Positions 44,384 through 63,824 of a DNA stretch of 64,000 nucleotides are shown piece by piece. Origin of the DNA: Noviherbaspirillum sedimenti (lineage in GTDB: Bacteria; Pseudomonadota; Gammaproteobacteria; Burkholderiales; Burkholderiaceae_D); the NCBI RefSeq assembly GCF_003590835.1, contig NZ_QYUQ01000002.1, positions 1,426,001 through 1,490,000 on the forward strand. Reading direction: 5' to 3'. Made by a program: the position numbers and the translations under genes. The number at the start of each line of letters is the position of its first letter. The stretch's first letter is position 1. Under the pieces are notes generated by a model, which saw only the letters and a list, made by a program, of their open reading frames with translations, had not been told where the DNA came from and ran no database searches.

Positions 44384-45340
44384 TCAACCGTGACTTGTCC
44401 ACGAAAAGGCGTGGTCGGTGCCCTCGGGACTTTCACGATATCGTCTAAAGTAAGAACCTGAGCGAATATCGCTGATAATATCGAAATGGCGCGGCACCCA
44501 ACCGAGTTCCGCGATCGTGCGCTTCGCTATTGATCTGCTGTTCACTGCCAGCGCTATATCGACCCAAAAACCACCCCAAAGCGAACAGGACTCTTCATAG
44601 GAAAGCGAGCGTGTGCCGCAACCCGCCACCTCCGCTACAGCCTCTGCAATCGTCCGGAAGTTCGCCTCTCCCGATACGGCATGATACAGAGCCCCAGGGG
44701 TACCCTTCTCGATAGCCAATGCATATACCTCAGCGAGATCGTCGACATGGACGCAGGAATAGAGGTTGAGACCATAGCCGAGATAGCAAGCATCGCCGGT
44801 TTTTCGAACTGATTCAAAGATCTGTGGGATCTGAACGCTCGCGCCGTTCCCATAAATAAGAGGCGGACGGATCACGTAGGTGCTGAGGGAAGATGAGGAC
44901 GCTTCGCGCACCAGATTTTCCGTCTTGAGCCTGATGTCGCGATTATAGCGTGAGGGAAAGGGGAAGGGATCATCTTCGGCGAAGGTGTTTTGATTCCAGG
45001 CTCCGTCTTTGGCCTCAATCGCCAGCACGCCCGTTCCCGAGGTAAAGAGCAAATGCCGGTGGAACTGTCCTTGGGCCGCAATCAAAGCTCTCATAATGCC
45101 CGCTTCTGCTTCGAACGGTACCATGGCTGCCATGACTACCACGTCGAAAGGTTGGGATAGTTCCGTTAGTCGGGCGAGGTCTTCGAGGTTGCCTTCGATC
45201 GGTACCACGCCGGCCGCCTCAAGCTTCTCTCGGTTCGCAGCATTTCGTGCTAAACCGTGCACAAGCATGCCGCGTTCCTTCAAAGTGCGCGCGACTGCCG
45301 AACCGACATAGCCTGTCGCTCCGAGTACCAGTGCTTTCAT
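44384..45340 (-). CDS. NAD-dependent epimerase/dehydratase family protein
   Basis: The 318-residue extended SDR starts KALVLGATGYVGSAVARTL with the NAD-binding GxxGxxG, but lacks a standard YxxxK at the usual position; PLIYGNGASV is the equivalent substrate segment. GGAGG precedes ATG 45340, which decides against the longer frame starting at 45379. It is the last gene of the left catabolic operon (OYE, dehydratase, three SDRs, epoxide hydrolase). It could act as a ketone reductase or isomerase on a pathway intermediate. Confidence 0.8.
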   Translation of the reverse strand: MKALVLGATGYVGSAVARTLKERGMLVHGLARNAANREKLEAAGVVPIEGNLEDLARLTELSQPFDVVVMAAMVPFEAEAGIMRALIAAQGQFHRHLLFTSGTGVLAIEAKDGAWNQNTFAEDDPFPFPSRYNRDIRLKTENLVREASSSSLSTYVIRPPLIYGNGASVQIPQIFESVRKTGDACYLGYGLNLYSCVHVDDLAEVYALAIEKGTPGALYHAVSGEANFRTIAEAVAEVAGCGTRSLSYEESCSLWGGFWVDIALAVNSRSIAKRTIAELGWVPRHFDIISDIRSGSYFRRYRESPEGTDHAFSWTSHG

Positions 45341-45433
45341 AAATACCTCCGTCAATGAAAAAAATATCTCGGTGGCCATCAGCGTTCGGCCATACCAGTT
45401 TATTTGAACCGTGAATGAGCGAGACCACTCCGA

Positions 45434-45862
45434 TCAGGCAAGCTTCGCCTGTTCTTCCAGCTTGGTATCCGGAAAACCAGCCTTTGGATCAAAATAGTCA
45501 GCCCAGCGAGCAATTAACCCATTCTTGAATTCCATAACGCCGCAAATCTTGGGCACTAGCGTTGCAATGCCGTTTGTGTTGCGATGCCAGTCCGTGCGCT
45601 CGGTGAAGACAACATCGCCGACCGCCGCTATGTGAAACATCTCGACCTCGATCGTCTGAATATCCAGTTCTGGCAGGGTGCAGACGGAAGTTATGAGATC
45701 GATGGCCTCTTCAATACCATTGCACGGCGCAACTCCGGAATTTTCATACCGAACATCCGGTGCCAAATATGTACGATAGGCCTCGCAGAGATCTGCGAAA
45801 GTTCCCTTCTCCCAAGCCTTAAAAAACGCCAGCACATGAGCCTCGTTATCCCCAGCAGACAT
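45434..45862 (-). CDS. limonene-1,2-epoxide hydrolase family enzyme
   Basis: The 142-residue NTF2-fold protein retains all five residues known to be catalytic in limonene-1,2-epoxide hydrolase: Tyr39 and Asn41 (RYENSG), Arg89 and Asp91 (TERTDWH), and Asp122 (RWADYFD). In that enzyme the Asp-Arg-Asp triad activates water to open an epoxide in a single step. AAAAGGAG precedes the start. It lies between an SDR and the epimerase gene. The presence of the complete site argues for true epoxide hydrolysis and not a SnoaL-like cyclase. Confidence 0.82.
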   Translation of the reverse strand: MSAGDNEAHVLAFFKAWEKGTFADLCEAYRTYLAPDVRYENSGVAPCNGIEEAIDLITSVCTLPELDIQTIEVEMFHIAAVGDVVFTERTDWHRNTNGIATLVPKICGVMEFKNGLIARWADYFDPKAGFPDTKLEEQAKLA

Positions 45863-45891
45863 TTCATCTCCTTTTCTCTACAGCCAGCGCA

Positions 45892-46653
45892 TTATTGCGC
45901 GACAAACCCACCATCGACGACGAGCGCATGACCCGTTACAAAACTGGCCTTGTCCGAGCATAGCCAGACCGCCCCTTGAGCGATCTCTTCGGGTTCACAT
46001 AGCCGTCCCATCGGCGCATAATTTTCCAATCGCCGGCGAATCGCCTCGCTCATCGCCATCACCTGATCCACCATGGCGCTGCGTGTGACCCCTGGGCAAA
46101 TGGCATTCACACGGATGTTGCGGTTCGCATATTCCAGCGCGGTACTCTTCATTAGCCCAATCACGGCGTGCTTGCTCGCAGTGTAGGCAGGAAGTGGCGG
46201 ATCCATGGTGCCGATCAGTCCTTGGGTCGATGACGTGTTGCATATTGCCCCCTTACCACGCTTAAGCATCTGCGGAATCTGATATTTCATACACAACATC
46301 TGGCTGATAAGATTGATCTCGAGTGTGCGGCGGAACACCGACTCTTCCCACTTGTGGTCGTCCGGATGCGTAATTCCTGCATTGTTAAAAGCGCAATCAA
46401 TCCCGCCGAATTTCGCCACCGTCGCGTCAAGGAACCGCTGCACGTCAGCATCGAGCGAAATATCCCCGGCGATCGCGATCACCTGGCCGCCTTGGCTTTC
46501 GACCAAGTGGGCTGTTTCCTCGACGCTCTGCGAATTCAGGTCGGAGAGCGCAATCATGGCGCCTTCCGCCGCAAAAGCAAGCGCACCGGCACGACCAATT
46601 GCCCCGCCAGCGCCGGTCACGGTCACAACTTTTCCTTCGAACAATCCCGCCAT
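45892..46653 (-). CDS. short-chain dehydrogenase/reductase
   Basis: The 253-residue classical SDR has VTGAGGAIGRAGALAF, FNNAG, the catalytic Ser region NTSSTQG with YTASK, and the GHALVVDGGF end. It resembles LinC-type 2,5-diol dehydrogenases and glucose dehydrogenase-like alcohol dehydrogenases of alicyclic pathways. GAGGAG seven bases upstream decides ATG 46653. It overlaps neither neighbour and is in the middle of the operon. Confidence 0.88.
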   Translation of the reverse strand: MAGLFEGKVVTVTGAGGAIGRAGALAFAAEGAMIALSDLNSQSVEETAHLVESQGGQVIAIAGDISLDADVQRFLDATVAKFGGIDCAFNNAGITHPDDHKWEESVFRRTLEINLISQMLCMKYQIPQMLKRGKGAICNTSSTQGLIGTMDPPLPAYTASKHAVIGLMKSTALEYANRNIRVNAICPGVTRSAMVDQVMAMSEAIRRRLENYAPMGRLCEPEEIAQGAVWLCSDKASFVTGHALVVDGGFVAQ

Positions 46654-46726
46654 ATACTGTCTCCTCAATTCAATATCTTCCCGGTTATGCACGATCGAAG
46701 CTGACATGCAACTTCCGGGGCCCGTA

Positions 46727-47488
46727 TCAACCTGCCCCCATACCTCCGTCAACGATCAATTCGGCGCCCACGGCATAAATGGCGTCGTCGGACGCAAAGA
46801 ACAAAATTGCCTCCGCGATTTCCGCCGGTTGTGACACCCGTCCAAGTGGGATTTGCGTCGCAAATGCCTTGGCTATCTCTTCGTGATTATCCAAGCCTGT
46901 AATCAAATTGGTCATGGATGCGCCGGGGTGAATGCTGTTAACCCTAATGGGTGGTTTAAACGCAGCACCTTCGAGTGCAGCCGCCTTCGTCATTGTGGTG
47001 ACTGCGCCCTTTGTAGCGCAATAACCTGTCATGTTGGGCGATCCCAGAATTCCACGGAGCGACGAGACATTCACCACCGAGCCACCGCGTCCGGCCCGTG
47101 CCATTTCCCGAAAGGCGCAGCGGATACCAAGCCATGTGCCTTCAACATTCACGCGCTGCATTAGATCCCAGTCTGACTCTGTCGTGTCTTCAATTGGTTT
47201 CCACACATGAATACCAGCATTATTCACCACTATGTCGAAGCCGCCGGTCTCGGCGCGCAGCCGATCTGCGAGGTCGTTCCAAGCCTCTTCCCGAGTCACA
47301 TCCAGATGATGATAAAGCGCCTTGCCGCCATCCCGCTTTATCTCGGCGACTACAGCCTCGCCGTCTGAATCAACGATGCCGGCGACGACGACAGTCGAGC
47401 CCTCGGCGGCGAAAAGTTTCGCCGTCGCCTTGCCAATGCCCTGCGTCGCACCGGTGACAATGGCGACCTTACCATTAAGTTTTCCCAT
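46727..47488 (-). CDS. short-chain dehydrogenase/reductase, cyclopentanol-dehydrogenase-like
   Basis: The 253-residue SDR begins GKLNGKVAIVTGATQGIGKA and has VNNAGIH, NVSSLRG and YCATK, with the C-terminal AELIVDGGMGAG. The overall pattern matches CpnA/ChnA-type secondary alcohol dehydrogenases that oxidise cyclic alcohols. GAGGAG precedes the start. Three SDRs in a row imply three alcohol/ketone conversions or different stereoisomers of one hydroxyl group. Confidence 0.87.
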   Translation of the reverse strand: MGKLNGKVAIVTGATQGIGKATAKLFAAEGSTVVVAGIVDSDGEAVVAEIKRDGGKALYHHLDVTREEAWNDLADRLRAETGGFDIVVNNAGIHVWKPIEDTTESDWDLMQRVNVEGTWLGIRCAFREMARAGRGGSVVNVSSLRGILGSPNMTGYCATKGAVTTMTKAAALEGAAFKPPIRVNSIHPGASMTNLITGLDNHEEIAKAFATQIPLGRVSQPAEIAEAILFFASDDAIYAVGAELIVDGGMGAG

Positions 47489-47504
47489 GATTCTCTCCTC
47501 TTTT

Positions 47505-48242
47505 TTATATCGCGACCATGCCGCCGTCGATGAACAGTTCTGCGCCGGTCACGAAGCTGGATCGGTCGGAGGCGAGAAAAAGGACGCCACCGGCGATTTC
47601 ACTCGCCTCCGCGCGACGCTTGATTGGGATGCGCTCATCGAGCGCCGGATCGATTTCAGCGCTCATCGTGGTCTTGCAGATGCCAGGCCCTAGGCTATTG
47701 ACGCGTACGCCGTCTTTGGCCAGTTCAAGCGCTGCCGACTTGGCAAGCACACGCTCCCCGCCTTTGCTTGCGCAATAGGCGGAGTAATTCTCGTAGCCCA
47801 CCTTGCTCGAGGTCGAAGTAATGAAGACGATTGAGCCCTTGCCAGCCTGGCGCATTGGTGGGCTGACATATTTTAGGGCAAGGAAGCAGCTGCGCAAATT
47901 GGTATCGAGCGTCGTCCGAAGGGTTTTCAGGCTTCCTTCCAACACTGACTCGCTGGTCGAATATCCTGCACAACAGACCAATATGTCGATGCGTCCATGA
48001 TCCCGCATCACCTGCTCGGTCAAATGTTGCCAATCTTCCCCCGACGTGATGTCTTGGCGGATATAAAACGCCTTACCGCCATTTTTCACCATATCAGCGG
48101 TCGCTGCCTCCCCCTCGCTGCGCGTGCGACAGGTAATGATGACAGTCGCCCCCTCGGCTAGGAAACGGTCTGCGATCGCGCGTCCGATATTGCGAGAACC
48201 ACCCGTCACGATCGCTATTTTTCCTGCAATTTCGTCAGCCAT
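47505..48242 (-). CDS. short-chain dehydrogenase/reductase
   Basis: The 245-residue SDR has VTGGSRNIGRAIADRF and YCASK with the catalytic Ser in ITSTSSK. The usual NNAG motif reads CCAG (ILVCCAGYST), a departure in the strand 4 region that stabilises the fold; the catalytic Tyr and Lys remain. GAGAGGAG precedes the start. It is followed by another SDR 16 bp downstream. Confidence 0.85.
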   Translation of the reverse strand: MADEIAGKIAIVTGGSRNIGRAIADRFLAEGATVIITCRTRSEGEAATADMVKNGGKAFYIRQDITSGEDWQHLTEQVMRDHGRIDILVCCAGYSTSESVLEGSLKTLRTTLDTNLRSCFLALKYVSPPMRQAGKGSIVFITSTSSKVGYENYSAYCASKGGERVLAKSAALELAKDGVRVNSLGPGICKTTMSAEIDPALDERIPIKRRAEASEIAGGVLFLASDRSSFVTGAELFIDGGMVAI

Positions 48243-48283
48243 TTTCGCTCCTCTCGATTATCTAGTTTTCTTGCCGTTGCCAC

Positions 48284-48739
48284 TTAGTTGGCGGACGGCA
48301 GCGGAATGGTCAGACGCCGCAGTCGCGTAAGCTTCAGCGTCTCGATCTTCCATACGTCATTCTCGCGTCGATAGGTCTCGTGATAATGGCCCGCACCGGT
48401 CATCTGCGAAATGCCGAACGGATTGCCTTCGCTACCCAACCAGTAAATCTGGTCAGTCATTGCCCAAATTGCCTTGGCATGGTTGGCATCGACGATCTCG
48501 ATCTCGGGCATAAAACCGCTGTGGATGCTGACCGGGGTTTGCAGAACATCCTTGATGAAGGTCATCCCCTCGTCGATCGGTCGTGGCGCATCGAAGGCCT
48601 CCGCAAAAAATACCGTAGCGTCGTCTGTAAAGATGGCGCGCAACGAGTCCCATTGCTTGGTATCAACGAAACGAAAGTATCGTGCTTTTAGTAAGCGGAT
48701 CTGTTCTATTGCATAGAGCTTATCGGCAATGTTCATCAT
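48284..48739 (-). CDS. SnoaL-like dehydratase or isomerase (LinA/BaiE type)
   Basis: The 151-residue NTF2-fold protein has Asp26 in RYFRFVDTKQWD and His73 in VSIHSGF, aligning with the catalytic Asp-His pair of LinA (Asp25, His73), BaiE and scytalone dehydratase. These enzymes eliminate water or HCl across a ring C-C bond. ATG 48739 and the next ATG at 48736 are both possible, with GGAATACC upstream. It lies between the OYE and three SDRs, a combination suited to dehydrating a ring alcohol made by an SDR, then reducing the double bond. Confidence 0.75.
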   Translation of the reverse strand: MMNIADKLYAIEQIRLLKARYFRFVDTKQWDSLRAIFTDDATVFFAEAFDAPRPIDEGMTFIKDVLQTPVSIHSGFMPEIEIVDANHAKAIWAMTDQIYWLGSEGNPFGISQMTGAGHYHETYRRENDVWKIETLKLTRLRRLTIPLPSAN

Positions 48740-48967: not shown

Positions 48968-48974
48968 AAAAGAT

Positions 48975-50099
48975 TTAGGATAGAGATGCCAGAGCGGCCG
49001 GGTTGAAAGGCTGCAGTTCGTTGTGTGCGCCGCGACGAACTTTCTCCACCCAGCTGGGATCGGCCAGAATCGCGCGGCCGACCCCGATCAGATCAAAGTC
49101 GCCACGCTCGAACATTGCCAACAGTTTGTCGAGGCTGGCAGGCTGACTGGTTTCGCCCATCAGCGTTGCCATTAGTTCCACGTCTAGCCCAACTGAACCT
49201 ACGGTCATGGTTGGCTTGCCGGTGATCTTCTTGACCCATCCTGCGAGATTGAGATCACTTCCCTCAAACGCCGGCTCCCAGAAGCGCCTCTGCGAGCAGT
49301 CGAAAATATCCACGCCGGCATCGACAAGAGGCGTCAGAAACTGCTCCAGTTCCTGCGGTGAATTGACGAGCGTTGCACCATAGTCGTGCAGTTTCCATTG
49401 TGACAAGCGGAACATCAACGGATAGTCGGCAGATGTCCGGGTGCGGCACTCCTTGAGCACCTCCGTGGCAAAGCAGGTGCGTTTCACGAGATCGCCACCA
49501 TAGCGATCCTGGCGCAAATTCGTCTTGTCCCAGAAAAATTGGTCGAACAGATAGCCATGGCCGCCGTGGAAGCCAACGCCGTCGAAGCCTAGATCGAAGG
49601 CGCTGCGTGCAGCTTGGGCAAAAGCCTCGATCACCGCATCGATATCGGCTTGTGTCATTTCGCGCGTTAGTTTGACCGGGGCAGTCCCTATGGCACCTAC
49701 CATACCGGACGGTCCAACTTGGACATCGGTGACGGAACCCGCAGACTCATAGACACCCTCGATTTTCGAGCGGGTGAACAGTCCCGCATGCCACAATTGA
49801 GGAATGATTTTGCCGCCTTTAGCATGGACCTCCTTCACCACCTTGCTCCACCCTTCCAACGCGGGACCGTGGAAGTCGGGCACATTTTCCTCATTTGATG
49901 CGCCCGGATGTGGCACCCAGGTACCCTCGGTAACGATTAGTCCCACGCCGCCTTCGGCGCGCCGCCCGTAATAGCCAGCCACATCCACGCCTGGCACGCC
50001 CCCTGGGGAAAAGGCACGCGTCATCGGTGACATCACGATGCGATTTGACAGCTTGAGGCTGCCGATCACAATTTCCTCGAACAAGAACTCAGTATTCAT
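48975..50099 (-). CDS. NADH:flavin oxidoreductase, OYE family
   Basis: The 374-residue FMN barrel begins with SNRIVMSPMTRAFS and has GFHGGHGYLFDQFFW, with His-x-x-His where the OYE at 15698 has His-x-x-Asn, and the C-terminal FDLIGVGRAILADPSW. It should reduce an activated C=C bond, such as an enone created by oxidation and dehydration in the same operon. AAGGTGAG precedes the start. It appears to be the first gene of the left catabolic operon. Confidence 0.87.
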   Translation of the reverse strand: MNTEFLFEEIVIGSLKLSNRIVMSPMTRAFSPGGVPGVDVAGYYGRRAEGGVGLIVTEGTWVPHPGASNEENVPDFHGPALEGWSKVVKEVHAKGGKIIPQLWHAGLFTRSKIEGVYESAGSVTDVQVGPSGMVGAIGTAPVKLTREMTQADIDAVIEAFAQAARSAFDLGFDGVGFHGGHGYLFDQFFWDKTNLRQDRYGGDLVKRTCFATEVLKECRTRTSADYPLMFRLSQWKLHDYGATLVNSPQELEQFLTPLVDAGVDIFDCSQRRFWEPAFEGSDLNLAGWVKKITGKPTMTVGSVGLDVELMATLMGETSQPASLDKLLAMFERGDFDLIGVGRAILADPSWVEKVRRGAHNELQPFNPAALASLS

Positions 50100-50675: not shown

Positions 50676-50972
50676 TTGTGCGATTTAAAATTCCGCAATA
50701 ACGAGCGCTTCATCTACGAGTATGACCTCGGTAACTACTGGCAACACGAAGTCCGCGTTGAAGCGCGCTTGGCGCGGGAAGATAAACGCACCTATCCCTG
50801 CTGCATTAACGGTCGACGGCGGGCGCCGCCGGAAGACTGCGGCAATCCCTTGACCTTCATGGCGCGACGGGATGCCGTCCCGCTGCAAGTTGCGGATTTA
50901 TTCGAGATCATCCGTAAATATCACGTTATATGTGATGTCGCGCCTGATACACATTCTGTCGCCCAATGGTAA
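50676..50972 (+). pseudogene. fragment of a pRiA4b ORF-3 / IS1096 TnpR-like protein
   Basis: The frame contains RFIYEYDLGNYWQHEVRVEA, TYPCCINGRRRAPPEDCG and RRDAVPLQVADLFE, the conserved centre of plasmid pRiA4b ORF-3-like proteins often carried by transposons. The N-terminal half and the end are missing. It suggests a past insertion within the island. Confidence 0.7.
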
Positions 50973-51091: not shown

Positions 51092-51466
51092 GTGCTTAAA
51101 CAGATCGTACTTTTGAAGCGTCGTCCCGGAATGACGATGGAGGAGTTCAAGGACTATTATGAGAATGTCCATTCCAAGCTTGGTGAAAAGTATATGCCCT
51201 TGGCGCGGCGTTACTTCCGACGCTATGTGTGCCCAGAGCCAAATCCTATTACACGGCAGGTAGAAGAACTCGATTTCGACGTTGTAATGGAGATTTGGTG
51301 GGACTCTCGCGAGGATTTCGAGTCAACGATGGAGTCAATCGGTAGCGGTGAAATACACCGGTTGTTCGTTGAAGATGAGAAGAAGATCTTTGATCGACAT
51401 AGTAATCGTGTCTTCACTGTTGAAGAAAAGGAGTCAGTGATGGATAGGAGCTGGGAGGGTTGCTGA
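51092..51466 (+). CDS. EthD-domain protein
   Basis: The 124-residue protein has the EthD/dimeric alpha-beta barrel pattern: KRRPGMTMEEFKDYYENVHS at the start, the conserved RYFRRYV strand, and FDVVMEIWWDSREDFES. The start is GTG 51092, with GGAG seven bases upstream. EthD-like proteins accompany oxygenases and ring-processing enzymes in several catabolic clusters, though a catalytic role is only known for some. It is the only plus-strand gene in the middle of the island and has its own spacer on both sides. Confidence 0.8.
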   Translation: MLKQIVLLKRRPGMTMEEFKDYYENVHSKLGEKYMPLARRYFRRYVCPEPNPITRQVEELDFDVVMEIWWDSREDFESTMESIGSGEIHRLFVEDEKKIFDRHSNRVFTVEEKESVMDRSWEGC

Positions 51467-51589
51467 TCTGGCCGCAGCTCCCAAACCTAATCCGCGGCTC
51501 TTCGAGGCGGCATACTGACCTCTTGATGCCGGGCCAGCGTTTGATCTCTGGAATATAGGCCGGGCACGGGCAACGCCACACAGTGCCGC

Positions 51590-51785
51590 GTCTCGACACG
51601 GCCATGCCCCTTGTCGAGTGTCTCAAAGTGGGAAGGGCTTCAATGTCGTCCCATCCCTCGGCCCCGGCCATGATTGCGCACAACGCGATCACCAGAATAT
51701 CGGCAAGCGCGTGATCAAAGCGGCCTGTCACGCGTGGATCGTCAATGCCTCTCAGCCGTTGCACCAGGATCATGCCAGGATTCAT
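51590..51785 (-). mobile_element. N-terminal fragment of an ISAs1-family transposase
   Basis: On the minus strand the frame reads QRLRGIDDPRVTGRFDHALA, then DILVIALCAIMAGAEGWDDI, the DDE_Tnp_1-associated N-terminal domain of ISAs1-type transposases. It then loses similarity; the catalytic part is absent. It is a relic between EthD and the right operon. Confidence 0.75.
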
Positions 51786-51877
51786 GTCTGCCCCCGATTC
51801 AAAATCAAGGAGCAAACATTGTTAACGGCTTTTAATGCTCCGTGGTCGGAATAACGGGGCAAAGCCTGAAACCGGAA

Positions 51878-52915
51878 CTAAAGCGGCGTCACACCCAATT
51901 GGGCACACGCACCCTCGATTGAGTTGACGACACTCGACGGCGCCTGGAATCCGGTTGGCCTGCCGCCATCGTCCAACTCACGAGAAATCAGAAGCGCCAT
52001 GCGTGCGGTCTGTTCATAGATCGGCCACGACGTTATCGCAGCCTGTGTCGACTCATCCCCTCGCGACAAGTAAGCGGTGACGAATCCCACAAATGCTGGC
52101 TCTTCTTCCACCGCCTGACCTGCTGCCGAGCCGATTTTTTCAAGATACGCCAAGCGCCCTTTTTCGTCCTTCAGCCCAGAAGCCGCCGAGGTAAACATTT
52201 CCGCGGTTTGCTCCGCTGCCTCGGCGGGAACATCGATGCCAGAACGAAAGCTCTCGAACCGCATGTAGCGCGATACAAGAATGGGGTCCGCCAGCGGCCG
52301 CTCGACTAGCGTCCTGCCCCCTATTTTGTGGATGGAGCCGAGTGTTTCTCGTTCCACCAGTTCGCCATGTTCGACCACAACACCAGGGTGGCTCAGTATC
52401 TCCATTTCCGAAAGAAGGGTCCCGTAACTTGGCGTAAAGCCACCTGCGAAGTAACCGGTGACTCCCGCTGTCGCGTCAGGCATTTTTTTTAACGCGAGCC
52501 GGACCGCGAAATCTCCAGTCGCCCCTGAGTAGCCTGCGCCAGGGCATAAAGTAACGCCGCGCTCGCGTGCAGGCTCATCCAGCTCCCGCAGCATGCGCAA
52601 AGTGTCACGCACCTCCCCGCTGAAGTCCATGTAGTGCGCACCCGCCATGATGGCGGCGCGCGCCAGGCCATGCCCCAATGCACCGGACGGTGTGGCCGCG
52701 TTAAGCAGTACATCGCCAGGGCCCAGGGCGGAAACAACCGAACCCATGTCGCTCGCATCGACCCGGCACATCTCGAAGTCCGCTCCGAGCCCGGCCAGCC
52801 TCCGTCTCGCTGTATCGATATTTCGAACCGCCAGTCGTAACTCCACATCCTGCTGCAACGCGTACTGAATAATGCGGCGACTTGTCTCGCCAGTGGCACC
52901 AACCAATAAAATCAT
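51878..52915 (-). CDS. saccharopine-dehydrogenase-like oxidoreductase
   Basis: The 345-residue protein has an N-terminal Rossmann fold (MILLVGATGETSRRIIQYAL) with the typical second strand AVRNIDTARRRL, then HYMDFSGEV and CPGAGYSGATGD, as in the saccharopine dehydrogenase/trans-acting enoyl reductase-like family. The usual substrate is unknown; related proteins reduce C=C or C=O groups of polyketide-like molecules. It is the last gene of the right operon, 68 bp after the dienoyl-CoA-reductase-like gene. Confidence 0.75.
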   Translation of the reverse strand: MILLVGATGETSRRIIQYALQQDVELRLAVRNIDTARRRLAGLGADFEMCRVDASDMGSVVSALGPGDVLLNAATPSGALGHGLARAAIMAGAHYMDFSGEVRDTLRMLRELDEPARERGVTLCPGAGYSGATGDFAVRLALKKMPDATAGVTGYFAGGFTPSYGTLLSEMEILSHPGVVVEHGELVERETLGSIHKIGGRTLVERPLADPILVSRYMRFESFRSGIDVPAEAAEQTAEMFTSAASGLKDEKGRLAYLEKIGSAAGQAVEEEPAFVGFVTAYLSRGDESTQAAITSWPIYEQTARMALLISRELDDGGRPTGFQAPSSVVNSIEGACAQLGVTPL

Positions 52916-54966: not shown

Positions 54967-55095
54967 CTCTAGCTCCTGTTTGCAACGATACACAGGGCAA
55001 TTGCCTTGACGTAAGCTTTTTTTTCACTTGCATTCATCATTTTTTCAGTCTCCATTCACCCAATTCAGATATGCGCCATGACAGGCCCAAGCTTT

Positions 55096-55755: not shown

Positions 55756-56459
55756 TACGCGCCCCCTTTGCGAGTAGTAATCTGCTCTATGCGTTTTTCA
55801 TAATTCGATCCACGAAACAAGCGATCGACATAAATGCCGGGAGTATGAATATGGTCAGGGTCGATTGTGCCCGCCTCGACAATCTCTTCGACCTCAACGA
55901 TGGTGATCTTGCCGGCCATGGCAACCAGAGGATTAAAATTGCGCGCGGTTTTCCTGTAAATCAGATTTCCTCGCGTATCAGCCTCCCAAGCCTTGACGAT
56001 AGCCAGATCCGCCGTTAAGGCGGTCTCGAGGATGTACTCGATGCCATTGAAGTATTTGTGTTCCTTTCCTTCCGCGACGATGGTCCCGACCCCGGTGCGG
56101 GTATAAAATCCCGGTATGCCAGATCCGCCTGCGCGAATACGCTCGGCAAGCGTTCCCTGCGGATTGAATTCCAGTTCAATCTCCCCGGAGAGATACTGAC
56201 GCTCGAATTCCTTGTTTTCGCCGACATAAGAGCTGATCATTTTTTTGATCTGGCCAGTCTGCAGCAATAAGCCTAGACCAAAGTCGTTCACGCCCGCATT
56301 GTTGGAAATTACGGTCAGATTTTTTACTCTGCTGTCACGAATTGCGCTGATCAGGTTTTCCGGTATGCCGCATAAGCCAAAGCCCCCAGCGGCGATCGTC
56401 ATGCCATCGAACAGCGTGTCCGCCAAAGCGGATTTCGCACTCTCATAGATTTTATTCAT
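55755..56459 (-). CDS. 3-oxoacid CoA-transferase subunit A
   Basis: The 234-residue alpha subunit has the CoA-binding [13 protein letters not shown] near residue 25 and the conserved [17 protein letters not shown]. It pairs with the next gene. It follows the enoyl-CoA hydratase by nine bases. Sequence cannot separate succinyl-CoA:3-oxoacid transferase from beta-ketoadipate or other transferases of the family. Confidence 0.9.
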
Positions 56460-56468: not shown

Positions 56469-57260
56469 TCAATCAGCCTTGAATACCGGAGCGCGTTTCT
56501 CCATCAATGCGAGTACGGCATCCTTATGATGGTCCGAGGACATGGTGAGGTTTTCAAGGCCGATATGGGCTTCTATGGCCGCTTCGGCCTGACGGCGCAA
56601 TACCATATTGATGGATTGTTTGGTCGCTCTGATCGCTTCAGTCGCCCCGCTCGCCAGCTTTTCGGCATAAGCATCGACCTCGGCGTCCAGCATATCCGCC
56701 GGCACTGCCTTGTAGATCAGGCCGATCGCGGCGGCCTCCACAGCACCTATCGGTTCCCCGGTAAGCAGGTGATGCCGGGCGCGGGCAAAACCGATCAGTT
56801 GCGGCCAGAGCAGAGAGCCGCCATCACCGGCTGATAATCCGACATTGACGTGCGAATCGGCAATCTTGGCGGTATCAGCCGCGATAACGACATCGCAAAG
56901 AAGCGCGAGGGTTGCTCCCAACCCCATCGCATGGCCGTTCACGCGCGCAATCACCGGTTTGTCCAGCCCAAGCAGCGAATGCACGATATGCGGGGCCCGG
57001 CGCATCGACTCCGCCCTGACCTTTGTATCTTCTATGGACTTCAACATGCCGTGGAAGTCTCCACCTGCGGAAAAGGCACGCCCTGCGCCGGTCAAGATAA
57101 CGACATGGCAATCGGGATCCCGCGCAATATCGTAGAAAATATGGGACAGTTCATCATGCAGCTGAAAGCTTGCCGCGTTCACGGGAGGATTGTCCATGGT
57201 AACGGTCAATATCTTCCCTCGGCGTTCGAATTTCAATAATTCGTATCGGTCGTACAACAT
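56469..57260 (-). CDS. enoyl-CoA hydratase/isomerase family protein
   Basis: The 263-residue crotonase-fold protein has the oxyanion-hole segment GAGRAFSAGGDFHGML and the second region VNGHAMGLGATLALLCDV, with GLSAGDGGSLLWPQLIG where the second catalytic Glu of hydratases is expected. Gly replaces one of the usual acidic positions, so isomerase, hydrolase or C-C bond cleavage activity is possible. GGAG five bases upstream decides ATG 57260 over the longer frame to 57320. It sits between the Rieske oxygenase and the CoA transferase. Confidence 0.85.
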   Translation of the reverse strand: MLYDRYELLKFERRGKILTVTMDNPPVNAASFQLHDELSHIFYDIARDPDCHVVILTGAGRAFSAGGDFHGMLKSIEDTKVRAESMRRAPHIVHSLLGLDKPVIARVNGHAMGLGATLALLCDVVIAADTAKIADSHVNVGLSAGDGGSLLWPQLIGFARARHHLLTGEPIGAVEAAAIGLIYKAVPADMLDAEVDAYAEKLASGATEAIRATKQSINMVLRRQAEAAIEAHIGLENLTMSSDHHKDAVLALMEKRAPVFKAD

Positions 57261-57320
57261 TGAATCTCCAGAATATTTTGTATGCGCCAAATCCAGATTG
57301 CAGCACTCTCCACTACGCAT

Positions 57321-58685
57321 TCAGGGACGGTCAGGCACCTCGGGGTGGTCGTAAGGATCAAGCAGGAACCGGCGCAGCTCACGGTGGAAATTGCTGATGG
57401 TGCGCTCCTGGACAGGATTGGTCCGCTCGCCAGCAAATCCGCGCGACTTCATCCCCTTTTGAACCTCGGGAATATTGACAAAATCCTGCTTGTAAATCAG
57501 GGGCCATTCGGCATCGCGCCAGTTCTCATAGAACTCGCGCTTCAACGGCGGCTCCTGGCCTGGGCCGTAACGCTGCAGAGACCAGACATCGAAAATGCAG
57601 CTTTCGGGGTCATGGCCATTGGGGCGCACGCGATACCACAGCACTCCATCGATCGAACCATGCAGATAAATCGTATTCGGAAACACGTGCCAGTCCAGGC
57701 CTGAGCGCTCGATATAGTCGGCAGTCAGTTCAGCAGGCCACCCGGATCCGTCCGCCACGGCGGCCTCGACCTGAACCTGCACCCACTTGTTGAGCACCTC
57801 GCCGGGCGGATCCGTATTGGTCACTTCCTCCCGCAAGCGCTGCGTCGCGTTGTAATTGCGTTCAGTGACCATCGCTTTCAGGTCGCGATTGAATTGGTTG
57901 ACAAATTCAAGAATATGCTCACGAAGCGGCGGCTCCTCTTTCGGCGGTAGACGCGGCGAACGCTTGAACGGAATGGCGCCATTAGCGTCATACCAGACTG
58001 AACCGTGGCGGCCAAAACCAGCACTTTTCGAATAATCGTTAGTGAATTCCAGCAACTGGCGATGTGCCTGCTGCACGTGGTAAAACTCGTTAAAGAAACC
58101 AAGCACCGTTTTCCAGTTCGCCGGCATGATGACGGTTTTGTACCAGCGATAACGAAGTTTTTCAAACTCGAACTTGGCACAATAGTCATCGACCGGATGA
58201 AGAAATTCTGCAAGCGACTGGCTTTGCGGGTCCATGTTAATGAAGACAAATCCGCCCCAGGTATCCGCCTTGATTTCCTTGAGGTTAGCATCTCCTTCCT
58301 TAAGGCACGCGCCCCAGTCATCGCGATCGATCACCCTGATGTTTTTACCCCCAAGATCGTATTGCCAGCCATGAAACTTGCAGGTGAATTTCTCTGCTCG
58401 GCCAGTCCCTTCAGTCAGGCGACGCCCACGATGCGCGCAGACATTGTGATAGGCCTTTATTTCGCTCTCGCCAGTGCGCACGACGATGATGGAGTCATCC
58501 ACAATATCGTAGGTCAGGAAATCGCCAATCTTTGGGATTTCTTCCAGCCGGCACGCGATCTGCCAGACATAGGGCCAGAGACGCTCCTCTTCCAGGCGAG
58601 CGAAGTCCGGGCTGTAATATGCTTCCTTCGGCACGAAATCGTCACGCACGTCACCAATAGGAAACCCTTTCCTCTCAGCGGTCAT
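57321..58685 (-). CDS. Rieske ring-hydroxylating oxygenase alpha subunit
   Basis: The 454-residue protein has an N-terminal Rieske domain (CAHRGRRLTEG, then CKFHGWQYDLGG) and a C-terminal catalytic domain with the mononuclear iron ligands in FFNEFYHVQQAHRQ. It should hydroxylate or dihydroxylate a ring using electrons from a reductase and ferredoxin, neither of which is encoded nearby. AGGAGG precedes ATG 58685, which is preferred over the extended frame to 58745. It is the central oxygenase of the right operon. Confidence 0.9.
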   Translation of the reverse strand: MTAERKGFPIGDVRDDFVPKEAYYSPDFARLEEERLWPYVWQIACRLEEIPKIGDFLTYDIVDDSIIVVRTGESEIKAYHNVCAHRGRRLTEGTGRAEKFTCKFHGWQYDLGGKNIRVIDRDDWGACLKEGDANLKEIKADTWGGFVFINMDPQSQSLAEFLHPVDDYCAKFEFEKLRYRWYKTVIMPANWKTVLGFFNEFYHVQQAHRQLLEFTNDYSKSAGFGRHGSVWYDANGAIPFKRSPRLPPKEEPPLREHILEFVNQFNRDLKAMVTERNYNATQRLREEVTNTDPPGEVLNKWVQVQVEAAVADGSGWPAELTADYIERSGLDWHVFPNTIYLHGSIDGVLWYRVRPNGHDPESCIFDVWSLQRYGPGQEPPLKREFYENWRDAEWPLIYKQDFVNIPEVQKGMKSRGFAGERTNPVQERTISNFHRELRRFLLDPYDHPEVPDRP

Positions 58686-58731
58686 TTTGTACCTCCTGAT
58701 GTGTATTGCATAAGGCGCAGTCCTTTGAGTT

Positions 58732-59721
58732 TCACTTTGACGCAAGCTCCCTGATTGCCGCTTCCAATTCCGCTTTGCCAGGCAAGAAGGCCTCTTCGAG
58801 GTGCTTGGAGAACGGGACCGGCGAAAATTTGCTGCCGATTCGCTTAACAGGCGCCTTTAGTTCGCTAAACAAGGCTTCATGAATGATCGATGAGATTTCA
58901 GCGCCAGGCCCAAATTTTTTCGTCGCCTCATGCAGGACGATTGCGCTGCGGGTTTTCGATACCGACCGCAGGATCGCAGCTGTGTCAAGTGGCGCGACAG
59001 TGCGCAGATCCAGCACCTCCACCGACACGCCCTCACTTTCCAGCTTCCTGGCAACCGCCATTGCATCATGAACCTGCCTGCCATAGGTGATGACAGTCAC
59101 ATCCTTGCCGGCGCGCACCACATTCGCTTGTCCAAGCGGGATGCGGCGGCCCCGTTCCGGCGCATCGCCCTTGGTCCAATACATGGGCAAGGTTTCGACA
59201 AAAATGCAGGGGTCAGGGTCTTCGATGCACGAGAGCAGCAAGCCGTAAGCGTCTGCCGGAGTCGAAGGAATGACGACTTTCAAGCCCGCCGTATGTGCAA
59301 ACCAGGCTTCCAGAAAATCGCTGTGCTGTCCGCCGTTGCCCATCCCGGCTCCAGTCATGGTTCGTATCGTGATCGGCACATTGGTTTGTCCACCGGACAT
59401 GAAACGAAGCTTTGCTGCATGGTTCACGATCATGTCCATCGCAACGGTCGTGAAGTTCATCAGCATAATCTCGGGAACCGGCTTGTAGCCGACCATCGAT
59501 GCACCGATTGCGGCACCCATAATCGCCTGCTCGGCAATTGGCGTAGACCGGACACGTTGAGCCCCAAATTTGTTGGCAAGCCCTTTGGTAACGCCGATCA
59601 CCCCACCGCCCTCCTCATCAGCGACATCTTCACCGAGCAGCAGCACCTTGGGATCGGCTTCCATGGCGTCATGCAGCGCAAGATTGATCGCCTCCAGCAT
59701 ATTCAATTTTTCAGAGCTCAT
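58732..59721 (-). CDS. 2-oxoacid dehydrogenase E1 beta subunit
   Basis: The 329-residue protein has the transketolase-like pyrimidine domain (LLLGEDVADEEGGGVIGVTK, TPIAEQAIMGAAIGASMVG, VPITIRTMTGAGMGNGGQHS) and the C-terminal transketolase domain. It resembles acetoin, pyruvate and branched-chain E1 beta chains. Its start overlaps the E1 alpha stop by four bases (ATGA). The gap to the Rieske gene is 46 bp. Confidence 0.9.
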   Translation of the reverse strand: MSSEKLNMLEAINLALHDAMEADPKVLLLGEDVADEEGGGVIGVTKGLANKFGAQRVRSTPIAEQAIMGAAIGASMVGYKPVPEIMLMNFTTVAMDMIVNHAAKLRFMSGGQTNVPITIRTMTGAGMGNGGQHSDFLEAWFAHTAGLKVVIPSTPADAYGLLLSCIEDPDPCIFVETLPMYWTKGDAPERGRRIPLGQANVVRAGKDVTVITYGRQVHDAMAVARKLESEGVSVEVLDLRTVAPLDTAAILRSVSKTRSAIVLHEATKKFGPGAEISSIIHEALFSELKAPVKRIGSKFSPVPFSKHLEEAFLPGKAELEAAIRELASK

Positions 59722-60692
59722 GCTGCCTCCACTTCATGCTGAAATACATCCCGGTAAATTTCCGCCGCGTCCGGATAAGGACTCGCAAGGGCAAATTGCA
59801 GCGCCTCTTCGAGCTCTGCAGCGATGCCGGTTTCGATTGCAGCAAGTTCATTTTCCGTCGCGTGATTGTTGGCTAACAGCCAGTTGCGATAGATGGGATA
59901 GGGATCCTTCTCCATGTGAGCCGCTCGCTCGCCTGGGCTCATATAGGAGTCGTCATCGCCGAACACATGACCATAGAATCTGAATGTAATGGCCTCGATC
60001 AGGGTCGGCCCACCTCCCTCCCTAGCTCGCTCAATTGCCTCGCGCGCGGCAGCATGCATGAGAAGAGGGTCATTACCATCGACGGTTACCCCGGGCATCG
60101 AATAGCTTTCGGCACGCTTCGATATCCGATCAATCGCGGTACCGGAGGAATATTTGGTATGTTCCGCATAACCATTGTTGGAGCAAACGAAGACAACCGG
60201 AAGTTTCCAGAGGGAGGCCAGATTCAGCGCCTCATGGAATGCCCCGATGTTGCTCGCGCCATCACCGAAGTAGGCTATGGTGACACGACCGTCTCCGGAC
60301 AATTGGGAAGCCCATGCCAGACCATTGGCGATAGGCATGGTCGAGCCCACGATGCCGGTTGTAATCATCACGCCGCTGGCGGGATGGGTAATGTGCATCG
60401 GGCCGCCTTTGCCTTTGCACGTGCCGTCGATGCGTCCGGCCAGTTCCGCCCAAACCTGTTTCAAGGGAGCCCCTTTGGCGAGGGAGTCATGTATGCCACG
60501 GTAGATCGTGCAAATATAATCCTCCTTGCGCAGGCAAACGGAAACTGCTGCTGGTATCACTTCCTGTCCACGCGATGAGTAGTACGGCATGCTTAACCGG
60601 CCAGACTTGATTGTTGAACGCAGTTTTTCGTCGTTCATCTTCAGCAACGCCATCTTCCGGAACATTTCAATTAAATCTCTTTTCTCAGCCAA
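59718..60692 (-). CDS. 2-oxoacid dehydrogenase E1 alpha subunit
   Basis: The 324-residue protein has the thiamine diphosphate motif GDG at FGDGASNIGAFHEALNLASL and NN in VCSNNGYAEH, and the phosphorylation-loop-like FRFYGHVFGDDDSY. With E1 beta it decarboxylates a 2-oxoacid and normally passes the acyl group to a lipoyl E2. GGAGG lies six bases before a TTG at 60692, which is proposed as the start; an ATG at 60707 sits upstream of that site. No E2 or E3 gene is found in the window. Confidence 0.87.
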   Translation of the reverse strand: MAEKRDLIEMFRKMALLKMNDEKLRSTIKSGRLSMPYYSSRGQEVIPAAVSVCLRKEDYICTIYRGIHDSLAKGAPLKQVWAELAGRIDGTCKGKGGPMHITHPASGVMITTGIVGSTMPIANGLAWASQLSGDGRVTIAYFGDGASNIGAFHEALNLASLWKLPVVFVCSNNGYAEHTKYSSGTAIDRISKRAESYSMPGVTVDGNDPLLMHAAAREAIERAREGGGPTLIEAITFRFYGHVFGDDDSYMSPGERAAHMEKDPYPIYRNWLLANNHATENELAAIETGIAAELEEALQFALASPYPDAAEIYRDVFQHEVEAA

Positions 60693-60800
60693 AGTTTTCC
60701 TCCACATTCCCAAAATTTAGCGGCAAGTACCATCGACAATTGATCACACGATGCGAAGAATAAGGTTTGCCAATATCCGCAGTCTTGATTCTGTACGACA

Positions 60801-61512: not shown

Positions 61513-62586
61513 TTGGAAAGCCTTATCAGTTCCCCGGTTTCAGATGTTGAAAACGACAATCGCAAAAGCTACAAAGCTGCGGTCGTCCGCGTGGAAGCCC
61601 TGCGTGACACGTTCCCCAGAGCGGTTAGTGATCTGGGAGGCACCCCGGATCTTTTGCTCCACAAAGAGCACATCACTCCTTCGATACTTCAAGAGTCCAA
61701 CGCCGTCATTTCGTACCGGGCTGTAATCTCCCTTCTCGAACGTGCTTCTGACGAACTCAACTGCCCCGATTTCGGGCTGAAGCTTGCCGGGTATTCAGGC
61801 GATGGAATTACGGTCCTGGGGCCGCTTGAAATCGCTATGCGAAATTCCAAAACGCTTGCAGATGCGTACGACTATTGCGCAAAAAATCTTCAGGTTTACA
61901 GCCCAGCGGTGCATATAAGTGTGGGGCGCGATTTTGGCGAAGGTCAAAGCAGCATCGTATTCGATATTCTGCTCGACGGCGTTCCGCGCCAGCGCCAGAC
62001 CGTCGAACATGCGCTCGGTCTAACTCATCTTGGCGTCAAGTCATTATCGCGTGATAAAGTGCAACCACAAGAGGTTTGGTTTTCGCATTCCCCTCTCGCC
62101 CCGCTGAATGTCTACCGCCTTTTTTTCGGAGTGCCGGTAAAATTCGGAATGCCAGCTAATGCACTCTTATTTGGAAAAGACGATCTTCAAAAACCAATCG
62201 CCAACAGGAACCCGCAAATCTACGAGATGGCGTGTAGCTTTATCGACACGAAATTTCCTTCTCCCTCGGTGCTTCTCGCCACCCAGGTTCGCATCATCCT
62301 GGGCCGACTATTGGCGACAGGACGCTGTACACAGATCAATGTCGCAGACATGCTGGCCATGCACCCACGGACATTCCAGCGCCGATTGAAAGAAGAAGGG
62401 ACGAGTTTTGAAGAATTGGTCGATGCGACGCGACGTGAGATCGCGCTGCGCAATCTGACTGACACTTCGGTGTCACTAACCCGGATCGCGGAAAAACTAG
62501 GGTACAGCGAAACTTCGGTTCTGACCCGAAGCTGCTATCGCTGGTTTTCCAGCTCCCCCCGTCAATTGCGAAAGGGAGGAACATGA
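61513..62586 (+). CDS. AraC-family transcriptional regulator
   Basis: The 357-residue protein has an N-terminal arabinose-binding-like domain (PF12625 type, about 30-210) and a C-terminal double helix-turn-helix (about 250-350; INVADMLAMHPRTFQRRLKE and VSLTRIAEKLGYSETSVLTR). Such proteins (OruR/ArgR-like group) activate catabolic operons. The start is a TTG at 61513 with GGAG seven bases upstream. It is divergent from the right operon, with tandem direct repeats between, and is the obvious regulator of the island. Confidence 0.88.
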   Translation: MESLISSPVSDVENDNRKSYKAAVVRVEALRDTFPRAVSDLGGTPDLLLHKEHITPSILQESNAVISYRAVISLLERASDELNCPDFGLKLAGYSGDGITVLGPLEIAMRNSKTLADAYDYCAKNLQVYSPAVHISVGRDFGEGQSSIVFDILLDGVPRQRQTVEHALGLTHLGVKSLSRDKVQPQEVWFSHSPLAPLNVYRLFFGVPVKFGMPANALLFGKDDLQKPIANRNPQIYEMACSFIDTKFPSPSVLLATQVRIILGRLLATGRCTQINVADMLAMHPRTFQRRLKEEGTSFEELVDATRREIALRNLTDTSVSLTRIAEKLGYSETSVLTRSCYRWFSSSPRQLRKGGT

Positions 62587-62594
62587 AAACCGGA

Positions 62595-62885
62595 GGTCAA
62601 CCACGAAATCCATGCTCCAGGCTTCGTTGGGACGAGTTGGCTTGATCTTGATCCCGCGCGAGACCACCATTTTGCGGCGCTTGGGTAGTTTGGAACGCAA
62701 CTGCAGCTGTTCTTCGCAATACAGGCGGTATGCCTGGTTCTTCCCAAGTTGCCAACCTTCGCGCTTGAGCAAGGCGTGAATGCGCCGATAACCATAGCGC
62801 ACACGCGTGTGCGCTATGTCCCGCATACGCTGGCGCAGGCCATGCCGCGGATCCTTGACGCTTCGGTAGTAATCATCATTCTCGC
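62595..62885 (-). mobile_element. fragment of an IS3-family transposase (OrfB)
   Basis: The minus strand reads DDYYRSVKDPRHGLRQRMRD, then RVRYGYRRIHALLKREGWQL, and ends shortly after NEAWSMDFVVD. This is the HTH_21 region and the first catalytic Asp strand of IS3 OrfB; the remaining DDE domain and the ends of the element are missing. It abuts the end of the AraC gene, so the regulator was the edge of an insertion or deletion. Confidence 0.8.
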
Positions 62886-63275
62886 AAGATCGCCGTTAGC
62901 CATCAAGATGGATTCGCCGGCTTTCAATTACCCATAAATTCTGATATTGCCATAGTAGCGTCCTAGCCTGACCAAAAGATGGTAGTCAGGAGAGTGTGAT
63001 GGAACAGCAGCAACATTGCCCCCGTGATGTCGTACCGGGATGGCTTGCTCACGAATTAGATGGCTATCGTTTCTTCGATGCCCGCCTGGTTTTACCTTGC
63101 CGATGACAACTTTAAAAAATGTCATCCTATGTCTCGTTCTTGACGTCCGCTGTCAAGATATTGCGTAGATGACTTTGCTATTGTTAAGCCTCCTAAAACT
63201 GAGGGCGCCTATTCCACCATTACATTGGGAACCAAGGCCAACTTGCAAATCACTGTTTCAAAAGGAGACATAGCA
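62886..63275. other. spacer with one inverted repeat
   Basis: No coding frame is recognised. The only structured element is GATGACA-N11-TGTCATC at 63102-63126, about 150 bp before the carboxymuconolactone-decarboxylase-like gene, a possible regulator site. Confidence 0.4.
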
Positions 63276-63824
63276 ATGCGAGTACATATACCAGAACGGC
63301 ATGCGTCGAATCCCGTAGCTTATGTGATGTCAACACATGCTGAAGATATTGTTCGCGCGGGCATCAACTTCTCAAAGGAAACCTATTCGAGGTCATCATT
63401 GTCGTTGCGTGAATTTGAAGCTGCGCGCACTCGTACTGCACAAATTAACGGATGCGTGTTGTGCAAAGCATGGCGATCTGCGCGTGATGTTCCAGGTTAT
63501 CTGGAGTCGCTAGGCGCAGAGAGCCATGCGAGCGTCGTCCAGAATGGGCCTGCGCCTGATGAAATGTTTTACCAAAGTGTGTCGAATTGGCAAAACACGG
63601 ATCTTTTCAGTGAGCGCGAGCGCATTGCGATCGAATATGCAGAACTGATGGGACTTGAGCCAAACGAACTTGCTTACAACGAAGATTTCTGGAGACGGGC
63701 CAAAGCAATCTTCACTGATAATGAGCTCGTCGACTTATCGTTCTGTCTTGCGGCTTGGATTGGCCTCGGAAGAGCCATTCATGTTTTAGGCTTGGACAAT
63801 GCGGCGGCATGCCAGATCTCCTGA
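63276..63824 (+). CDS. carboxymuconolactone decarboxylase family protein (AhpD-like)
   Basis: The 182-residue helical protein has the AhpD-type core ARTRTAQINGCVLCKAWRSA with a CxxC pair, and the C-terminal helices ERERIAIEYAELMG and NELVDLSFCLAAWIGLGR. The His that usually follows the CxxC by three residues (CxxCxxxH) is replaced, so peroxidase activity in the AhpD manner is doubtful. AAGGAG lies before ATG 63276. It may act as a decarboxylase or redox protein at the end of the island. Confidence 0.8.
   Translation: MRVHIPERHASNPVAYVMSTHAEDIVRAGINFSKETYSRSSLSLREFEAARTRTAQINGCVLCKAWRSARDVPGYLESLGAESHASVVQNGPAPDEMFYQSVSNWQNTDLFSERERIAIEYAELMGLEPNELAYNEDFWRRAKAIFTDNELVDLSFCLAAWIGLGRAIHVLGLDNAAACQIS

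Follow-up and report, generated by a model that had tools for sequence, protein, structure and literature searches.

A probably acquired catabolic island in Noviherbaspirillum sedimenti combining a Rieske oxygenase with a thiamine- and lipoyl-dependent E1-E2 core

The DNA analysed here, hereafter the window, is a 64,000-nucleotide stretch of the 5.04 Mb genome of Noviherbaspirillum sedimenti (contig NZ_QYUQ01000002.1, positions 1426001-1490000, designated G000:C2). From its position 44384 onwards lies a gene island of ~42 kb, of which the window holds just under half, the remaining ~22 kb running beyond the window end to ~G000:C2:1512446. Our preferred, still tentative, reading is that of an acquired catabolic island for a hydrophobic alicyclic, terpenoid- or steroid-like compound, in which a ring ketol or dione may be cleaved by the combined action of a Rieske oxygenase, the thiamine enzyme E1, a lipoyl protein and E2. 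Among eight genomes searched with UvrC, the best match was in Pseudoduganella rivuli (82% identity along almost the full length), which points to a probable place of the genome in the Oxalobacteraceae. All the enzyme classes named in an initial annotation of the window were recovered by Pfam or NCBIfam models, and its impression that the set resembles no named pathway agrees with the open-licence literature searched, in which no description of this gene set or module was found. The range it delimited ended at 63824, thereby missing half of the island. Its view of a catabolic island fits the genes, while for the probably alicyclic substrate that it proposed a terpenoid- or steroid-like class is tentatively the best reading.

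The evidence centres on two gene blocks, both on the minus strand (block A, 44384-50099; block B, 51878-60713) according to open reading frame calling, and not opposed as first annotated; the only named genes on the plus strand encode an EthD protein and an AraC-family regulator, the latter divergent from block B, together with a CMD/AhpD-like gene. Block B runs in the order E1alpha, E1beta, Rieske, crotonase, CoA-transferase A and B, with gaps of -14 to +9 bp, and continues after a gap of 102 bp with a FadH-like flavoprotein and then a saccharopine-like reductase. The large subunit of the oxygenase carries both motifs of Rieske non-heme iron oxygenases, namely CxH...CxxH and the two-His-one-carboxylate site. 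The E1alpha-E1beta-lipoyl-E2 set is complete within the island, with the E1 pair, a lipoyl-lysine domain and an E2 catalytic domain all present, as in a lipoyl-dependent E1-E2 dehydrogenase complex, the lipoyl and E2 genes lying ~16 kb from the E1 pair. An IS66 element, which opens the off-window part, perhaps explains this separation. The best NCBIfam model for the lipoyl protein is that of acetoin-dehydrogenase E2 (67 bits, below cut-off), and the CoA ligase is nearest to medium-chain and cyclohexanecarboxylate ligases, whose cut-offs it does not reach. Two lpd queries for an E3 (dihydrolipoyl dehydrogenase) within the island returned the ferredoxin reductase only (29% over 197 aa); the task would fall to a housekeeping E3.

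The island was probably acquired, because the Rieske gene is absent from the relatives searched and the GC content is low, an origin that had also been suggested initially. GC amounts to 0.542 in the island against 0.595 in window positions 1-44300, and in 4-kb steps to 0.509-0.573 against 0.555-0.631, the two ranges overlapping slightly. Of 120 relatives searched at 1e-60, the 119 besides this genome gave no match to the Rieske gene, and the same holds at 1e-110 for the 368 others among 369 genomes of the class. E1alpha was matched at 1e-110 in one of 391 other genomes of the family (61%), and its own genome has a second copy (70%). Fragments of the three transposon types reported earlier are all present (DDE_Tnp_1_assoc, an IS3-type piece below cut-off, and pRiA4b ORF-3). 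A simple empty insertion site in G003, a complete genome of the same genus, was considered and rejected: the flanking genes lipA and uvrC are 1.2 Mb apart there, and in the G003 stretches compared, 20 kb around lipA and 35 kb around uvrC, matches are confined to lipA itself and to the part beginning at 93.8 kb (joined coordinate). Megablast matches to plasmids were confined to the CoA-transferase genes.

In the route that we propose, the cytochrome P450 and the Rieske enzyme would oxygenate the ring, short-chain dehydrogenases/reductases (SDRs) would oxidise the resulting alcohols, and BaiE-like dehydratases, together with old yellow enzyme (OYE) and FadH-like flavoenzymes, would carry out dehydrations and the reduction or shifting of C=C bonds. 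The thiamine enzyme E1 would then cleave what the Rieske enzyme yields, a ring ketol or dione, and pass the acyl group to the lipoyl protein, from there to E2 and finally to CoA, so that the ring-opened acyl-CoA could enter the crotonase and CoA-transferase steps; AraC would regulate the pathway. Ketol cleavage is favoured by a small margin because the oxygenase is among the most constant companions, no ring-fission dioxygenase was found among the annotated island genes, and the lipoyl protein is nearest to the acetoin model. The decarboxylation of a 2-oxoacid by the E1 pair, assumed in the initial annotation, is not established and is one of two chemistries that fit, ketol cleavage being the other. 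It defines a rather unlikely alternative, in which E1, lipoyl protein and E2 would form a 2-oxoacid dehydrogenase converting a ring-fission 2-oxoacid to acyl-CoA, with no ketol cleavage. The best solved relatives of the E1 proteins are indeed 2-oxoacid E1s, the positions H263-alpha, E59-beta and H128-beta are conserved in the alignments, and in Sphingobium RAC03 the E1 pair has hmgA, fahA and maiA as neighbours. However, besides the lack of a ring-fission dioxygenase among the family-annotated island genes, nothing in the island matched RAC03 hmgA or the VOC protein of S. paeninsulae, the lipoyl protein points to the acetoin model, and E1alpha lies outside the sampled pyruvate dehydrogenase (PDH) and BKD rows.

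This placement comes from a tree of 69 E1alpha rows, comprising 46 of 80 baited loci, 16 annotated references or relatives, six other E1s of the genome and the window sequence. Window E1alpha fell into a 25-row clade (support 100/99) nested in a 56-row clade (100/99), outside of which stood three Aco references and the genome's own L150, PDH and BKD rows. The Aco rows formed their own clade (100/99), to which window E1alpha does not belong, in a tree that the baited sampling biases and in which several rows are long-branched. The scores of E1alpha against two PDH E1 alpha models were likewise below cut-off (TIGR03182, 283.8 bits against 393.85; TIGR03181, 235.6 against 411.35). In the E1alpha clade the second Tyr of YYS stands where the Aco rows and one PDH row have His; the exact word YYSxxGQE occurs in 62 of the 80 loci and in 119 of 120 database proteins, with Tyr recognised by eye in the remaining 18 loci. 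As far as these alignments go, the His-to-Tyr signature is a mark of the clade, not of the reaction.

The same core recurs widely. The best 80 of 584 E1alpha-baited loci were collected, 60 of which have at least 9 kb of flank on both sides. In these 60, E1beta is adjacent throughout, and an SDR (52) or a Rieske gene (42) lies within 10 kb; a lipoyl protein follows just downstream in 42 and E2 in 19, and the loci also carry an acyl-CoA dehydrogenase (ACAD; 41), a CoA ligase (39), a KstD-like FAD protein (26), a crotonase (25) or a P450 (21). Across all 80 loci the counts are 48 for Rieske, 54 for lipoyl and 23 for E2. The oxygenase and the thiamine-lipoyl core were found across alpha-, beta- and gammaproteobacteria and actinomycetes, including plasmids of Paraburkholderia sprentiae, Azospirillum and Streptomyces; further plasmids, in Diaphorobacter, Sphingobium RAC03 and Paraburkholderia PGU19, carry the E1 pair and lipoyl gene with no Rieske gene in the stretch examined. 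The module is widespread and apparently undescribed.

A search with the Rieske protein (1e-120) found matches in 12 of 397 genomes of the family of Sphingopyxis sp. H073, and 9 of the 20 places listed (8 loci) were annotated. Two of them, in H073 (G130:C4:179825-197101; 60 kb annotated) and in the sphingomonad G991 (C20:19839-37031; 40 kb annotated), share one gene order that is syntenic with the island: Rieske (69%), crotonase (71/69%), two ACADs, CoA ligase (65%), an acetoacetate-decarboxylase (ADC)-family protein (59/58%) and AraC (46/48%), followed by P450 (53%), a TonB receptor, E1alpha (65/68%), lipoyl protein (59/60%), a relative of SDR2 (42/40%) and a further SDR, with SnoaL (36%) and E1beta (68%) also present in H073. 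This shared order indicates that the block B genes belong with those for CoA ligase, ADC, P450 and lipoyl protein beyond the window end. Unlike the island, both clusters have two ACADs and a TonB receptor, and no OYE, limonene-1,2-epoxide-hydrolase (LEH), FadH-like protein or CoA transferase was among the genes found there. Clusters around the E1 pair in Paraburkholderia sprentiae, Azospirillum B510 and P. lini resemble the island in their Rieske (46-50%), E1, lipoyl, SDR, NTF2/SnoaL and CoA-ligase genes, in E2 in two of the three, and in MMPL/YCF48/DUF1329 in P. sprentiae; they differ by a KstD-like FAD protein in place of the FadH-like one, and by a GMC oxidase, esterase or ETF in some. None of these five clusters was found described in the literature searched, and ten extra sister-cluster proteins gave no substrate clue, five of them having no Pfam match.

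Block A has a diverged counterpart beyond the window end, with the same order and strand (OYE/OYE2 68%, SnoaL4/SnoaL4b 69%, SDR1/SDR4 72%), in which a P450 takes the place of SDR2 and SDR3. The block A SDRs carry the YxxxK motif. In the LEH-like protein, Y39xN41, R89xD91 and DYFD 122-125 align with solved LEHs and correspond to the Tyr, Asn, Arg, Asp and Asp of the active site, which is complete, in line with the epoxide hydrolase first described. As judged from gene neighbourhoods, block A is probably an accessory, travelling often but not always with the core. OYE relatives (48-62%) occur no more than 30 kb from the Rieske gene in four of the eight loci (S. paeninsulae, S. wenxiniae C5 and C6, and G967), and none was found near it in H073, G991, G910:C32 or 20 kb of G910:C9. 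The earlier treatment of the two blocks as one unit, to be refuted if they were never found together elsewhere, holds for the most part: relatives of both OYE and Rieske occur in one cluster in Azospirillum B510, in P. lini and G967, in S. paeninsulae and, at two loci, in S. wenxiniae, but no OYE was found in the closest synteny, that of H073 and G991. The S. paeninsulae cluster further contains CoA transferases (67/72%), a CMD-like gene (55%) and SnoaL4 (46/52%), its E1 matching at only 38/42%.

Several observations weigh against the cleavage of a ring ketol or dione by one coherent pathway. Among the 60 baited loci, OYE lies within 10 kb in only four and SnoaL_4 in 13, because of which block A may serve another pathway. 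SDRs, not Rieske, are the most constant companion, the Rieske gene being level with the lipoyl gene, and the proximity of Rieske (42/60) is a count taken with the window E1alpha as bait and without a matched random-locus control; across the own genome, Rieske matches amount to 25 pieces in 5.04 Mb, far sparser than near E1alpha but clustered. The ACAD pair of the sister clusters is missing from the island save for a 31-residue remnant. As regards E1, a long-branched fused E1 of the same genome (L155) falls inside the 56-row clade, whereas E1alpha of S. paeninsulae, although clustered with a 58% Rieske protein, falls outside it; E1beta exceeds the cut-off of NF006667 (327.9 against 321 bits), a broad PDH-beta subfamily model; and the best PDB matches are pyruvate and branched-chain enzymes. 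The His-to-Tyr change was rejected as proof of mechanism, since the His in question is also absent from BKD and from two of the three rows labelled PDH.

The same facts bear on whether the island might be a mobile-element patchwork, with its three parts (blocks A and B and the stretch beyond the window) drawn from different pathways and sharing no common substrate, which seems to us quite unlikely. Fragments of the ISAs1, IS3 and pRiA4b types do lie inside the island, as does an IS66 element, the lipoyl and E2 genes are distant from the E1 pair, no OYE or LEH was among the genes found in the H073 and G991 clusters, OYE is scarce near baited E1 genes, and the ACAD remnant and the split DUF1302 gene suggest decay. 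On the other hand, OYE and SnoaL4 relatives share clusters with Rieske in several genomes, and the downstream copy of block A carries a P450. The pRiA4b fragment, the EthD gene and the ISAs1-type fragment separate block A from block B. The genes of the IS66 element look intact, and a pRiA4b ORF-3 gene of full length accompanies them (L095:4167-7172; G000:C2:1490167-1493172). The DUF1302 gene occupies two overlapping reading frames (C2:1510759-1512446; L096:4859-6546), which may reflect a broken gene or a sequencing error.

Cleavage by the Rieske-E1-lipoyl-E2 core, as we prefer to read it, must also be set against known systems. A cluster for bile acids or other 5beta-steroids, with BaiE/Hsh2-like dehydratases, a BaiCD/5beta-Delta4-KSTD-like flavoenzyme, hydroxysteroid dehydrogenases of the SDR type, a CoA ligase for steroids and a Rieske enzyme hydroxylating them, is improbable. 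The island shares with the bai genes of bile-salt 7-dehydroxylation a dehydratase whose best PDB match is BaiE, with Tyr, Asp and His, the catalytic residues, kept in alignment to BaiE (4l8p), and a BaiCD-family flavoenzyme; moreover, it holds the DUF1302/1329/YCF48/MMPL set linked to steroid clusters. Likewise counted for a steroid substrate, two papers place 5beta-Delta4-KSTDs among OYE-family enzymes (PMC8044976, PMC8399759). The flavoenzyme, however, scores 389.3 bits against the BaiCD model NF041087, short of its cut-off of 825, and the Rieske-E1-lipoyl core has no counterpart in the bai genes. No BphC/HsaC-type dioxygenase exceeded the cut-off in the genome, the best being 74.7 of 366 bits for TIGR03213, a BphC model and a weak test, and in four bile-salt papers (PMC12175502, PMC8540908, PMC12882949, PMC8399759) 'pyruvate dehydrogenase' occurs 0 times, as does 'thiamine' in two of these.

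Acetoin dehydrogenase operons (Paracoccus, Acinetobacter) likewise combine E1 alpha/beta with a lipoyl-dependent E2, and those of Paracoccus contain a CMD-like gene; they differ from the island, in which E1alpha stands in a separate supported clade and the lipoyl and E2 domains are separate genes. No MDR-type butanediol dehydrogenase is among the annotated island genes, and the SDRs match a broad meso-butanediol dehydrogenase model below cut-off. IolD (inositol) and cyclohexane-1,2-dione hydrolase are thiamine enzymes opening a carbocyclic dione; unlike the island system, they are single-chain hydrolases with no lipoyl, E2 or CoA transfer. As to specific substrates, no gene evidence was found for abscisic acid, geosmin or tomatine, and a steroid cluster at 2.90-2.92 Mb was discarded, the translations looking by eye like phenol hydroxylase and meta-cleavage genes. 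The coordinates of all features are collected in Table 1.

Table 1. Features of the island, in window positions or, beyond the window end, in contig coordinates (C2)
Feature	Position	Strand	Model, match or motif
NAD-dependent epimerase/3beta-HSD-like reductase	44384..45379	-	PF01370 66.7 bits
LEH-like protein	45434..45862	-	PF07858; best PDB 9gol LEH 2.1e-18
SDR1	45892..46752	-	PF13561; 72% to off-window SDR4
SDR2	46727..47488	-	Pfam; 42%/40% to SDR adjoining lipoyl gene in H073/G991
SDR3	47505..48242	-	Pfam
SnoaL_4 dehydratase, BaiE-like	48284..48739	-	PF13577; best PDB BaiE 7.6e-11; 69% to off-window copy
OYE	48975..50099	-	PF00724; HxxHGY; 68% to off-window copy
Truncated pRiA4b ORF-3-like gene (scar)	50676..50972	+	PF07929 65.4 bits, profile positions 81-138 of 173
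EthD-domain protein	51092..51466	+	PF07110
ISAs1-type transposase fragment	51414..51815	-	PF13808 (DDE_Tnp_1_assoc)
Saccharopine-dehydrogenase-like NAD(P) reductase	51878..52915	-	PF03435
FadH/BaiCD/NCR-type flavoprotein (NCR, 2-naphthoyl-CoA reductase)	52984..54993	-	4Fe-4S motif CxxCx3Cx11C; TIGR03997 551 bits, below cut-off 793; best PDB NCR
CoA transferase subunit B	55096..55755	-	TIGR02428 305.9 bits, above cut-off; 67% in S. paeninsulae
CoA transferase subunit A	55755..56459	-	TIGR02429 265.9 bits, above cut-off; 72% in S. paeninsulae
Crotonase/enoyl-CoA hydratase	56469..57320	-	PF00378; adjoins Rieske in H073 and G991 too (71%/69%)
Rieske oxygenase large subunit	57321..58745	-	PF00355/PF00848; CxHx17CxxH and ExxHx4H; 69% in H073 and G991
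E1 beta (thiamine enzyme)	58732..59721	-	PF02779/PF02780
E1 alpha, Rieske-associated clade	59718..60713	-	PF00676; PYYSSRGQE
AraC-family regulator	61513..62586	+	PF12625 and PF12833; 46%/48% in H073/G991 clusters
IS3-type transposase fragment	62497..62826	-	NF033516 54.3 bits, cut-off 160 not reached
CMD/AhpD-like protein with CxxC	63225..63824	+	PF02627 17.1 bits, cut-off 23 not reached
SDR4	C2:1493558-1494361		
P450	C2:1494371-1495603		
SnoaL4b	C2:1495715-1496191		
OYE2	C2:1496188-1497324		
Ferredoxin	C2:1497830-1498156		
Ferredoxin reductase	C2:1498153-1499433		
ACAD remnant, 31 residues	~C2:1500105-1500197 (L095:14105-14197)		55% to H073 ACAD, 7e-5
Third SnoaL	C2:1500286-1500900		
E2 catalytic domain	C2:1501652-1502425		PF00198; DHRVINGA
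Standalone lipoyl protein, 76 residues	C2:1502447-1502677		PF00364; ESDK
CoA ligase	C2:1502950-1504602		
ADC-family protein	C2:1504618-1505418		
MMPL	C2:1505680-1508130		

A weak DUF4286 match lies between the third SnoaL and the E2 gene. The MMPL protein (59% to Paraburkholderia) opens an export-type set, MMPL/YCF48/DUF1329/DUF1302, in which YCF48 and DUF1329 follow MMPL and the DUF1302 gene extends up to C2:1512446. Past the island, single genes for an OYE-family, a LysR-like (by eye) and a Fic protein come first, and then, by eye, pgsA, uvrC, nagZ, pdxJ and recO.

The CMD/AhpD-like protein, the last reading frame of the range first delimited and left unnamed there, has 55% and 59% relatives beside Rieske genes in S. 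paeninsulae and S. wenxiniae. CMD-like CxxC genes recur near Rieske or E1/lipoyl genes in these two, in Sphingobium RAC03 and in Paracoccus acetoin operons (window 63225-63824; L089:19274-19843; L093:6705-7358; L161:6927-7256; L164:6927-7256), and such a gene lies within 10 kb in only two of the 60 E1alpha-baited loci. AhpD reoxidises a lipoyl carrier, and our guess is that the CMD-like protein might do likewise.

A second Rieske-E1-lipoyl cluster lies in the same genome at G000:C2:3755373-3833753 (L189, L149, L190, L191). Compared with the island, its E1alpha stands at 68%, E1beta at 70%, lipoyl at 71% and E2 at 65%, and its MaoC, CitE and BKACE genes are 67-83% relatives of those in Paraburkholderia and Diaphorobacter plasmid clusters. 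It belongs to a very large catabolic region, G000:C2:3707583-4039180, with 11 Rieske-matching places in ~330 kb; the 140 kb annotated (3755-3835 and 3985-4045 kb) contain, besides KstD-like, GMC and FadH-like genes, two complete DUF1302/DUF1329/YCF48/MMPL sets and another three DUF1329 genes. A third E1 pair with E2 (G000:C2:4039421-4043241, L194) follows closely after two Rieske genes, its E1alpha grouping with the acetoin type. Another member of the E1alpha clade, with ACAD, crotonase, FAD and SDR genes around it, was found in Sphingobium sp. TomTYG74 (L165:15001-17029), presumably a tomato isolate, judging from the strain name. In a paper on tomatine and Sphingobium (PMC10653915), acetoin, Rieske and acyl-CoA dehydrogenase have 0 occurrences.

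A broader form of the ketol-cleavage reading, which we regard as unlikely, would extend it to many organisms: the Rieske enzyme would install a ketol beside a ring ketone, a specialised E1 of the YY[SPT]xRG[QH][ED] type would cleave the C-C bond, and a free lipoyl protein would pass the product to CoA, a widespread and undescribed opening of carbocycles that, with many terpenoid- and steroid-like compounds, would stand in for the Baeyer-Villiger or 9,10-seco route. If E1 does cleave cyclic ketols to acyl-CoA, it would open rings aerobically by a route absent from the literature searched, useful for tracing plant terpenoid turnover and in biocatalysis. Once found, the reaction of the oxygenase and thiamine-lipoyl core would explain many unannotated degradation clusters.

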